Part shown: piece by piece, positions 80 through 2,410 of the stretch
How positions within the stretch are numbered: the first letter of the stretch is position 1
How the letters are laid out: each line of letters starts with the position of its first letter
Assembly: GCA_032250735.1 (NCBI GenBank)
Contig: JAVVEP010000003.1
Location: forward strand, 127,962-191,961
Length of the DNA: 64,000 bases
Reading direction: 5' to 3'
Origin: Gammaproteobacteria bacterium
GTDB taxonomy: Bacteria; Pseudomonadota; Gammaproteobacteria; SZUA-152
Translations under genes and position numbers: made by a program
The notes under the pieces: generated by a model
Told to the model about the DNA's origin: nothing
Databases searched by the model: none
Seen by the model: the letters and a program-made list of their open reading frames with translations, nothing else

Positions 80-1510
80 CTATTTCACTTCATCCTTGTC
101 CTTCAGCCCGATATCAAAACTGGACAGATAGGCATTGGGTTGATGGCCGTCATAGCGAATGCCATCAATGAAGTGGGTCTGTGGCGCACGGAATCCATCC
201 TCTTTCTCAAACTCGGGAAAGTCCTTCGCCGTCAGCTTGCCTTCGGCAATCAACTCCTTGGCGGCGGCGGCATAGATGTCCGGGCGATAGACCTTGCGGG
301 CAATCTCCATGAACCAGCTGTCCGGTTTCGGCTCGGCGATCTGCCCCCAGCGGCGCATCTGGGTCAGATACCAGATCGCATCGGAATAGTAGGGATAGGT
401 CGCGTGGTAACGAAAGAACACGTTGAAATCCGGCACCGCACGCTTGTCACCCTTTTCGTATTCAAAGGTGCCCGTCATGCTGTTGGCGATCACCTCGTAA
501 TCCGCGCCCACGTACTGGGATTTGGCCAGGATCTTCACCGCCTCCGGACGATTGGCGTTGTCGTTGGCATCCAGCCACTGCGCCGCACGAATCAGCGCCT
601 TGACCACGGCCTTGTGGGTATTGGGATATTTTTCCGCCCACTCGCGGCTGACGCCGAACACCTTCTCCGGATTGTTTTTCCAGATCTCATAGTCCGTCAC
701 CACCGGCACGCCTATACCCTTGAATACCGCCTGCTGATTCCACGGCTCACCCACGCAGTAACCATAAATCGTTCCTGCCTCCATGGTTGAAGGCATCTGC
801 GGCGGCGGGGTGACTGACAGGAAGACATCGGCACCCAGGGTTCCCGAGGTGTCGCCCTTTTTGGGCGCGTAATAACCGGGATGGATGCCGCCTGCCGCAA
901 GCCAGTACCGCAATTCGTAGTTATGGGTGGAGACCGGAAACACCATTCCCATCTTGAAAGGCTTGCCTTGCGCCTTATAGCTTTCCACTACAGGCTTGAG
1001 CGCGTCGGCCTTGATCGGATGCACGGGCTTGCCGTTTTCATGCGGCACGTGCTTTTTCATCTGCGCCCAGATGTCGTTCGATACCGTGATCGCGTTGCCG
1101 TTCAGGTCCATACTGAAGGCGGTAATGATGTCTGCCTGGGTGCCGAAGCCAATGGTCGCACCCAGCGGCTGGCCCGCGAGCATGTGCGCGCCATCCAGCT
1201 CACCATCGATGACACGATCCAGCAACACCTTCCAGTTGGCCTGCGCCTCGAGGGTGACATACAGACCTTCGTCCTCAAAAAATCGTTTTTCGTAGGCGAT
1301 GGCCAGGGGGGCCATATCCGTCAGCTTGATAAAGCCAAATTTGAGCTCCTCTTTTTCCAGCCCCGCCGCCTCGACCACCGAGCGTGGCGACAACATCGCC
1401 ATGCCGTTGAGGGCGACCACCGCCGCGAGCGCTGCCAGCCCACCTCTCATATATCCCCGGCCTGCCGGTCTCGATATTCCTGCACCACGACTCACCCATA
1501 ATCTTTTCAT
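80..1510 (-). CDS. nrtA: Nitrate ABC transporter substrate-binding protein (NrtA/CmpA family)
   Basis: A 476-residue periplasmic binding protein that should capture nitrate for an ABC transporter. The start chosen is the ATG at 1510, preceded by GGAG at good spacing; an upstream in-frame ATG at 1552 lacks such a site. The N-terminus has Arg-rich residues, then a hydrophobic stretch, consistent with a signal peptide. The mature part opens with [18 protein letters not shown], the typical opening of NrtA/CmpA proteins, and length matches that family. NasS, the cytoplasmic nitrate sensor that partners NasT, belongs to the same fold, but the export signal here favours the transporter subunit. Expression is probably controlled by the hexaloop/terminator leader directly upstream. 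The rest of the transporter operon is off the left edge. Confidence 0.88.
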
Positions 1511-1603
1511 CACTTTCTCCACCTTTGTGTCTGCCTGTTGATTTAAAAACACTAACGCTCACCATCCTGTTTTTTAATGGTTGTCTTCCAGCAAAAATGC
1601 CGC

Positions 1604-1653
1604 AAAAAAAAGCGTCCACCTGTCTAGCAATTACTCGCTATACCAGTGGACGC
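1604..1653 (-). terminator. Leader terminator ahead of nrtA
   Basis: On the minus strand an 8-bp stem (GCGTCCAC, 1653-1646, pairing with GTGGACGC, 1619-1612) is followed at once by eight T residues (1611-1604). It lies between the nasT stop and the nrtA start, about 95 nt before nrtA, so it would stop transcription before nrtA unless disrupted. Its 5' arm overlaps the second hexaloop hairpin (1648-1661), so the two structures cannot form together. Confidence 0.85.
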
Positions 1654-1737
1654 CGTTGTCCGTGCAGACGCGCCCTGGCGGTCAAGCTCACCGCCTCGTT
1701 CGCGAATCGTGCGCCGAATCACCCGCCGTTGGGTGAT
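1648..1737 (-). promoter_or_regulatory. Two-hexaloop ANTAR-responsive antiterminator RNA
   Basis: Read on the minus strand, hairpin P1 (1737-1718) has a perfect 7-bp stem ATCACCC/GGGTGAT closing the six-base loop AACGGC. Hairpin P2 (1661-1648) has stem GGAC/GTCC closing the identical loop AACGGC. Both loops carry A at position 1 and G at position 4, the bases recognised by ANTAR-domain proteins. P2 uses the same bases as the 5' arm of the terminator at 1653-1612, so protein binding to P1-P2 should prevent termination. The linker is long (56 nt) and holds its own hairpin (1695-1677, GGCGGT/ACCGCC). The likely ligand is NasT, encoded immediately upstream. Confidence 0.85.
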
Positions 1738-1825
1738 CGGGAAACCTTGTTGGCCTGCCTCGTGCCGGCCGTTGTCTCTATCTGTTTATTGCTCAGCTTA
1801 TGGCCTCACCTTATGGCCTCGCCGC

Positions 1826-2410
1826 CTAGCTCGCCTCGAACAGCGCCGCAGTGGCCACCACGTTCTCCGCCACCTCGGCCATGCGCTGATTACGATCCAT
1901 CGCCAGCTTGCGCAAGCGGCTATAGGCCTCGTCCTCGGTGCAGCCCCGTCGCGCCATGATCACACCCTTGGCGCGATCAATGGCCTTGCGCCCCGCCAGC
2001 ACCTGTCGGGTGTCGGCCAGCTCCCTGCGCAGACCGCTCATCAGGGCAAAGCGCGCCAGGGCGGTATTCACAATCGGTTCGATGCGCTCGGACTGCAGCC
2101 CATCCACCACATAGGCGCTGACGCCACACTGCATGACCCGCTCCAGCAGCTCCCGCCTATCCACCTCGACAAACAGGACCACGGCCAGGGGCTGCACGCG
2201 ATTGAGTTCGGCGATCCTGCCCAGCAGGATGGCGTTCGCCGTCCTCAGGTTCAACACCAGCAGCCGCGGCGCGTGTCGTTGCACCGCCGCCAGCAGGTCC
2301 TCGCCCGGATCCTGCTCCGCCACCACCTCGTGCCCCGCCGCCTGCAGCCCCTGTCGCAGCAGCTGACTGGCGGCCGGCACTTCATTCAGCAGAATAGTCT
2401 GTATGCCCAT
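1826..2410 (-). CDS. nasT: NasT-type ANTAR-domain transcription antiterminator
   Basis: A 194-residue cytoplasmic regulator. Residues 1-125 look like a response-regulator receiver fold; the C-terminal ~60 residues form an ANTAR RNA-binding domain (RKAIDRAKG, then EDEAYSRLRKLAM and AEVAENVV). NasT proteins bind paired hexaloop hairpins in nitrate-assimilation leaders and prevent termination, and such a leader lies directly downstream, before nrtA. The position expected for the phospho-acceptor Asp is Asn54 (LLVLNLRT), so control by phosphorylation is unlikely. In characterised systems NasT is held off by the nitrate sensor NasS. No NasS without a signal peptide is visible here. A GG-N10-GC promoter lies upstream. 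Confidence 0.88.
   Translation of the reverse strand: MGIQTILLNEVPAASQLLRQGLQAAGHEVVAEQDPGEDLLAAVQRHAPRLLVLNLRTANAILLGRIAELNRVQPLAVVLFVEVDRRELLERVMQCGVSAYVVDGLQSERIEPIVNTALARFALMSGLRRELADTRQVLAGRKAIDRAKGVIMARRGCTEDEAYSRLRKLAMDRNQRMAEVAENVVATAALFEAS

Follow-up and report, generated by a model that had tools for sequence, protein, structure and literature searches.

How might an RNA-binding antiterminator control a leader whose two recognition hairpins lie 56 nt apart? The question is raised by the stretch between a nasT-like gene and nrtA, both on the minus strand of the 64,000-nt piece of gammaproteobacterial DNA analyzed here, referred to as the window. Read along the minus strand, the leader begins with a 7-bp hairpin (P0, 1718..1737), in which AUCACCC (1737-1731) pairs with GGGUGAU (1724-1718) around the hexaloop AACGGC (1730-1725), with an extra outer G-U pair. 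A 56-nt linker (1662..1717) follows. Its minimum free energy fold is a single interrupted helix (1712-1664, predicted probability 0.65-0.82) with an apical hairpin (1677..1695) that has the arms GGCGGU (1695-1690) and ACCGCC (1682-1677) and a 7-nt loop, GAGCUUG; it occupies the usual place of P1 and has no hexaloop with A at position 1 and G at position 4 (A1/G4). Next comes the antiterminator hairpin P2 (1648..1661), recognized from sequence and folding, in which GGAC (1661-1658) and GUCC (1651-1648) enclose a second AACGGC loop (1657-1652). The intrinsic terminator (1653-1612) and its eight T (1611-1604) form the last feature, 1604..1653; the terminator 5′ arm, GCGUCCAC (1653-1646), covers the 3′ arm of P2 and the last two bases of its loop, and the 3′ arm is GUGGACGC (1619-1612). 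A first-pass annotation had the hairpin coordinates, the AACGGC loops with their A1 and G4, the 8-bp terminator stem and the eight T correct to the base. It also described a hairpin at 1695-1677 within a 56-nt linker; the hairpin is there, as part of the longer predicted helix.

Could such an arrangement arise by chance? A strict scan, which required a P2 with an A1/G4 hexaloop to overlap a terminator and an AAnG hexaloop hairpin to lie at most 66 nt upstream, returned one site on the two strands of the 64-kb window, the nasT-nrtA leader, and none in 40 dinucleotide-shuffled windows. Chance hairpins were rejected, since shuffling the nasT-nrtA intergenic sequence 2000 times reproduced the leader in 0 cases. 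Compared with its own shuffles, the segment 1590-1760 folds better by 4 s.d. In predicted nascent transcripts, P0 has a pairing probability of 1.0 throughout, and P2 forms with a probability of 0.80-0.97 at RNA ends from 1648 to 1620. When the RNA reaches 1612, replacement is complete, with the terminator at 1.0 and P2 at 0. The overlap of P2 with the 5′ arm of the terminator, noted from the start, is thus borne out both by the sequence and by mutually exclusive predicted folding. No Rfam family matches anywhere in the window at gathering score. Searched against 24 genomes of the order, the leader DNA found, besides itself, only short matches (E 0.01 or worse), and NasT has no match at E 1e-10 in 11 other genomes of the same genus.

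A sigma54-like site, CGGCACGAGGCAGGCC (1752..1767, minus strand), has its last base 14 nt before P0, the usual distance, and would put the RNA start near 1741. It scores 12.1 of 15.7 against the sigma54 consensus. Because the shuffle p is 0.215, the site is not significant alone, and a strong sigma54 promoter at this leader is not supported. A sigma54-like site at shuffle p <= 0.05 lies upstream of 42 of the 59 leaders having an AAnG hairpin in the wider set described below.

What would read this RNA, and what would it control? The nasT-like gene (1826..2410, minus strand) encodes a regulator of 194 aa with a degenerate receiver domain and an ANTAR RNA-binding domain. The ANTAR domain has a Pfam E-value of 4.6e-22 (78 bits), and Response_reg falls under its cut-off. 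This is the single ANTAR match in the genome (3.43-Mb assembly, 99.2% complete). The best matches of known structure are Rv1626 (1s8n), EutV, NasR and AmiR. With the EutV contact residues (6WW6) taken from the available text of PMC8934654 and matched here by alignment, RNA contacts are kept as R141, K142, E159, Y163, M171 and R176 of the window NasT; K147 is conservatively replaced by R146, and two other contacts differ. On the other side of the leader lies nrtA (80..1552, minus strand), which encodes a nitrate-type ABC substrate-binding protein (Pfam NMT1_2, 1.2e-100) with a hydrophobic, export-type N-terminal segment. The genes nrtB and nrtD follow downstream, just outside the window, and NrtD scores above the TIGR01184 cut-off, which makes this a nitrate-type ABC transporter operon. 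A second NrtA-like binding protein with a TAT-type N-terminus is encoded on contig C32 (L011:13918-17313), together with permease and ATPase genes, and adjoins a sigma54-activator-like regulator gene; roles beyond the NMT1_2 match were judged by eye.

We favor, with a probability of about 0.75, the reading that the window leader is a NasT-controlled transcription-antitermination leader of nrtABD, of an extended kind with an extra hairpin. Its two hairpins have stems of at least 3 bp and 6-nt A1/G4 loops, as in the ANTAR-leader definition given in the available part of PMC3369931. C:G pairs close both hexaloops (C1731-G1724 and C1658-G1651), a feature seen by SELEX in the accessible text of PMC7496416. 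P2 overlaps an intrinsic terminator with a U-run, and the cognate ANTAR protein is encoded directly upstream. The linker, at 56 nt, is not short. Because all tested ANTAR-leader features except the short linker are present, the leader is a variant of the ANTAR-target antitermination leader; because the definition in PMC3369931, as far as its available text goes, allows a variable linker, the window leader is barred from the short-linker form only.

The details of the switch are less sure. P0, transcribed first, would capture NasT through its AACGGC loop, and the linker would fold into a hairpin beside P2, acting as a positioner. Once P2 is made, NasT would be handed over to it and hold it, which would block the terminator that shares the 3′ arm of P2, so that nrtABD could be read. 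With no active NasT, P2 would yield to the terminator. Binding by NasT, its transfer across the linker hairpin and induced read-through are thus proposed from sequence features.

Several known systems resemble this one. The recruitment-to-antitermination hand-off between hairpins is common to our proposal and the EutV model (PMC8934654, available text), and the eut leaders share the A1/G4 hexaloops, the P2 over a terminator and a REC-ANTAR protein (PMC3369931, PMC8934654). They differ in their linkers, which in Enterococcus faecalis measure 5-12 nt against 56 nt in the window. EutV has a phospho-receiver, whereas that of the window NasT is degenerate, and the available text of the two papers describes no middle hairpin, whereas the window leader has one. 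A single additional hexaloop in the EutX RNA is the nearest precedent found for a third hexaloop (PMC8934654, available text). The 56-nt spacing is the main difficulty for the hand-off account, given the limits seen with EutV, where a linker extended to 14 nt, or by 20 nt, left antitermination strongly reduced or abolished (PMC3369931, PMC8934654, available parts). A curated actinobacterial ANTAR set has, in the part available, linkers of 2-25 nt. Also counting against the hand-off account are the middle hairpin, which has no hexaloop, and the window linker's own fold, which is not significant alone (z -1.24, p 0.12; repeat test p 0.08). The NasR/nasF leader of Klebsiella oxytoca likewise has two C:G-closed hexaloop hairpins preferring A1/G4, but NasR joins a NIT sensor domain to its ANTAR domain, whereas the window NasT has a receiver-like domain (PMC7496416, accessible text). 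The NasS-NasT system of Paracoccus denitrificans nasTSABGHC shares the NasT family and leader antitermination of nitrate genes (PMC3795266, PMC5424462, available parts). In contrast to that system, no NasS was found for the window NasT, the receiver motif PxRDxLE described below is absent, and the target, nrtABD, comes directly after nasT. In the open-licence literature, which leaves most subscription papers and supplements outside, no account was found of NasT leaders with three hairpins or of NasT proteins that do without NasS.

Is the long spacing peculiar to this locus? Loci with nasT came from three sources: 24 genomes of the order, 4 of which gave a match; 369 genomes of the class, of which 84 have nasT; and a collection of named genomes, represented by the best 80 of 566 confirmed stretches. 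From these, 154 loci were scanned. The scan, which imposed no upstream-hairpin requirement, gave 73 deduplicated P2-plus-terminator candidates in 67 loci; being products of a scan, they may include a few false ones, such as those of L043. An AAnG hexaloop hairpin lies 0-12 nt upstream of P2 in 31 of the 73 (0.17 expected), 13-24 nt upstream in 8 (0.19 expected) and 25-66 nt upstream, as P0 does, in 32 (0.53 expected); 14 have none. By a looser A..G rule, 20 leaders combine a hairpin near P2 (0-24 nt) with a far one (0.03 expected), and control loop patterns (not-A1-not-G4, C..A and AG.A) stay close to chance. The first-pass annotation, which held that lack of the paired loops in related genomes would speak against the leader, is upheld here, since many relatives have them. 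Its remark that the linker is longer than in described examples holds against the 5-12 nt in the available accounts of eut leaders, but the far hairpins in 32 of 73 candidates show that the window is no isolated oddity. The regulator does sit directly upstream of its target, as had been pointed out, but this is nothing special: in 43 of the 154 loci, a candidate leader follows nasT at a distance of at most 900 nt without an intervening NMT1-family gene. In another 19 the leader comes after an NMT1-family gene, and the strict scan found neither placement in the other 92; some of the loci are short.

How widely is the extended form distributed? Among the best 80 of the 566 named stretches, carriers of the far hairpin include Thiodiazotropha, Massilia, Herminiimonas, Ferriphaselus, Thiothrix and a Latescibacterota MAG, and the leaders of Rhizobium, Shinella, Ensifer and Halomonas have mostly short linkers. 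Genome-wide, a P0-P2 pattern found 19 sites in 18 of the 369 class genomes; the reversed pattern found 4 genomes. Sixteen of the 18 have nasT, against 84 of 369 in the class (p 1.6e-9), an enrichment that is partly by design because the pattern was drawn from such leaders. Nine of the 19 sites were known already; of the nine genomes with new sites only, seven have nasT (p 6e-4). The window leader itself falls outside the pattern (gap 61, limit 58). Two long-spaced P0-P2 matches that are partly alike (L215 and L216, in genomes G244 and G042) come from genomes with no nasT match at E 1e-15; the P0 of L216 has an unbroken stem of only 2 bp. A phylum sample was found by a two-hairpin covariance model, which favors strong short-linker leaders (53 of 398 genomes with a match; 24 readable of 29 fetched loci), and the far hairpin is present in 1 of the 24 (0.42 expected). 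Because of this count and the named short-linker leaders, the extended form is lineage-limited.

Does the linker hairpin matter? The strongest alternative takes the window leader as a plain two-hairpin ANTAR leader, with the far hairpin and P2 forming one dual motif over a long linker in which the hairpin is incidental. Two identical, consensus-perfect loops are what this would lead one to expect, and the window leader has just two A1/G4 hexaloop hairpins. The linkers of the 32 long-spaced leaders speak against it. They fold more stably than shuffles, with a mean z of -2.06 (p 1.4e-6), and 19 of the 32 reach p <= 0.05 on their own. Of the 32, 21 hold a hexaloop hairpin at most 14 nt from P2 (3.5 expected). 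G4 is present in 21 of 21 of these middle hexaloops and A1 in 18 of 21, in a search that selected shape and place only. The final loop bases are GC in 4 of 21 middle hairpins versus 23 of 32 far hairpins (p 2e-4); the loop of P0 is therefore the stricter and that of the middle hairpin the looser. The energy result stands in an enlarged set of 43 (p 4e-12), from which L212 was excluded for a terminator score of only 9. In this set, the 22 linkers scored by the script as lacking an A1/G4 hexaloop, a class that also takes A1/G4 loops on short or G-U-containing stems (L115, L131, L142 and L160), still fold better than shuffles (p 5e-6). Because of these 22 linkers and the 21 near-P2 hexaloops, the linker hairpin of long-spaced leaders seems to be maintained, and we regard the plain two-hairpin reading as possible but rather doubtful. 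The middle helix lies 3 nt from P2, versus 4.8 nt in shuffles (p 1e-4). Unpaired linker bases are not reduced (11 versus 10 in shuffles), so linker "bridging" as selection for short unpaired spacing has no statistical support (p 0.14).

Beside P2, the window keeps the position and stem of the middle hairpin only, and not its A1/G4 loop. Two genomes of one genus (G155 and G267; loci L223 and L224) keep an extended non-hexaloop linker hairpin that differs in sequence, and the window is of the same kind, with P0 intact and a 7-nt-loop hairpin in the middle position. The far hairpin had first been labeled P1; the comparison suggests instead that it is an additional P0 and that the linker hairpin, its loop degenerate, sits in the usual P1 place. 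Leaders with four hairpins also occur (L052, L065 and L115), in which a middle hairpin and P2 are preceded by two far hexaloops.

The same genome holds a second leader. Besides the window copy, the P2 sequence has one further exact copy, on contig C39 (G000 C39:11261), where AACGGC again fills both loops and is joined by a terminator and T8. The C39 leader differs from the window leader in its short linker (3-6 nt, depending on the extent counted as P2 stem), its perfect sigma54 site and its target, a 667-aa NirB-related flavoprotein (TIGR02374, 384 bits; cut-off 578) encoded ahead of a multihaem cytochrome. The cytochrome is of the c type, and the flavoprotein (L175:9181-11296) has a C-terminal hydrophobic extension, as judged by eye. 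This operon is a possible NasT target outside classical assimilation. Because the genome has a sole ANTAR gene and the C39 leader has a short linker, one NasT seems to face both the short and the long layout. With the two-hairpin covariance model (R1), the C39 leader scores 34 bits (E 3e-4) and the window leader comes next at 21 bits (E 0.24), a low score because a short-linker model must score a long linker low.

A second alternative is that the window leader is a decayed three-hairpin leader. The middle hairpin would then be a former P1, the nrtA leader would be weakly inducible or constitutively terminated, and C39 would be the live target. The middle hairpin without A1/G4, the weak sigma54 site of the window, the perfect sigma54 site and canonical short linker of the C39 leader, and the R1 scores, with their bias against long linkers, all fit this idea. 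It is nonetheless unlikely: none of P0, P2, the terminator and T8 is damaged, retaining a terminator with eight T ahead of an intact nrtABD as a mere relic would be costly, and linkers scored as lacking the A1/G4 hexaloop are found repeatedly, in 22 of 43 leaders under the script's rule. Both the plain two-hairpin and the decayed-leader readings are versions of the same switch as the best explanation. Finally, an ordinary intrinsic terminator of nasT accompanied by chance hairpins would account for a leader that does sit downstream of nasT, but is very improbable given the 0 of 2000 shuffles and the same elements near many nasT genes.

What signal would the NasT switch answer to? In Paracoccus, NasT is kept inactive by NasS as long as neither nitrate nor nitrite is present (PMC3795266, available text). 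Neither a NasS nor an NrtC-type sensor was found in the 99.2%-complete window assembly with the NMT1_2 profile and a NasS query; at that completeness, a sensor gene could lie in a gap. The NMT1_2 matches in this genome are NrtA, the C32 paralogue with its TAT-type N-terminus (by eye) and a weak match on contig C12, and the NasS query found NrtA and the C32 paralogue only, both as partial matches. Since the search for a sensor gave none, we do not place the leader in the NasS-NasT system. The first-pass description of a complete NasT-type leader therefore holds in that an ANTAR-type leader lies between nasT and nrtA, and is not supported as regards NasS-NasT, with no sensor found and PxRDxLE absent.

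The sensor proves to go together with a motif of the NasT receiver. The NasS query was run on 80 of 87 nasT genomes (84 of the class and 3 more from the order). Its full-length matches are NasS or the C-terminal domain of NrtC-type frames of 700-800 aa, and partial matches ending near residue 362 are of NrtA type. Weaker matches, at 33-42% identity, include divergent NasS and exported proteins, sorted by gene neighborhood. The receiver motif PxRDxLE was defined in the present analysis, not taken from the literature, and sensor classes were assigned by hand in 72 genomes, leaving aside the eight without a fetched nasT locus (G038, G057, G059, G129, G142, G161, G165 and G324). Of 39 sensor-bearing genomes, 38 keep the motif, against 6 of 33 sensor-less ones (Fisher p 6e-13), with the gapped rows G268 and G345 counted as lacking it; without both, the counts are 38 of 38 and 6 of 32. 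Among the named loci (the best 80 of 566), 50 of 50 that have a sensor close by retain it, and 15 of 29 lacking one have lost it (p 1e-8); here the gapped row L120 is omitted, and "no sensor" means none on the fetched stretch. Together, 88 of 88 scorable sensor-bearing genomes or loci, from two sets that may overlap, keep the motif. It is also kept without a sensor in the 6 genomes and in 14 of the 29 scorable loci with none nearby. Common descent may lie behind part of this association, because in a quick NasT tree (13 of 67 inner branches well supported; G268 and G345 omitted) the motif changes 5 times and the sensor 6 times, with only 2 supported independent pairs and no significance. We read PxRDxLE as the likely NasS docking site. 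At this position the window NasT reads TANAILLG, and we infer that it does not answer to NasS; the signal would therefore be the amount of NasT or some other input.

These observations can be joined in a broader reading, which we hold tentatively and at less than even odds. A sizeable group of NasT leaders would be relays of three, sometimes four, hairpins, with a P0 of strict AAYGGC loop loading NasT early, a middle hairpin carrying or positioning it and P2 blocking the terminator; NasT itself would come in sensor-bound and sensor-free kinds. If the middle hairpin of the window is purely structural, the short-linker rule for ANTAR leaders would not be general. On the side of the sensor, PxRDxLE would dock NasS, or the C-terminal domain of NrtC, and would tend to vanish where there is no such sensor. 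The window NasT would be sensor-free, and nrtABD would be set by the amount of NasT or another signal rather than by nitrate through NasS.

What are the implications? First, in the literature examined, as far as its text was available, the rule that ANTAR hairpins lie close together comes from the EutV system. Second, a long and a short layout under one NasT would permit a direct test of the recruitment-and-hand-off model. Third, the strong co-occurrence of motif and sensor offers a hypothesis for how NasS holds NasT, and it raises the question of how NasT is controlled where no sensor is found. At four loci (L013, L016, L018 and L029), the NasT motif is kept and the single NasS-query match carries a TAT-type signal, as judged by eye. 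TAT substrates fold in the cytoplasm, and, speculatively, such a protein might still meet NasT before export.
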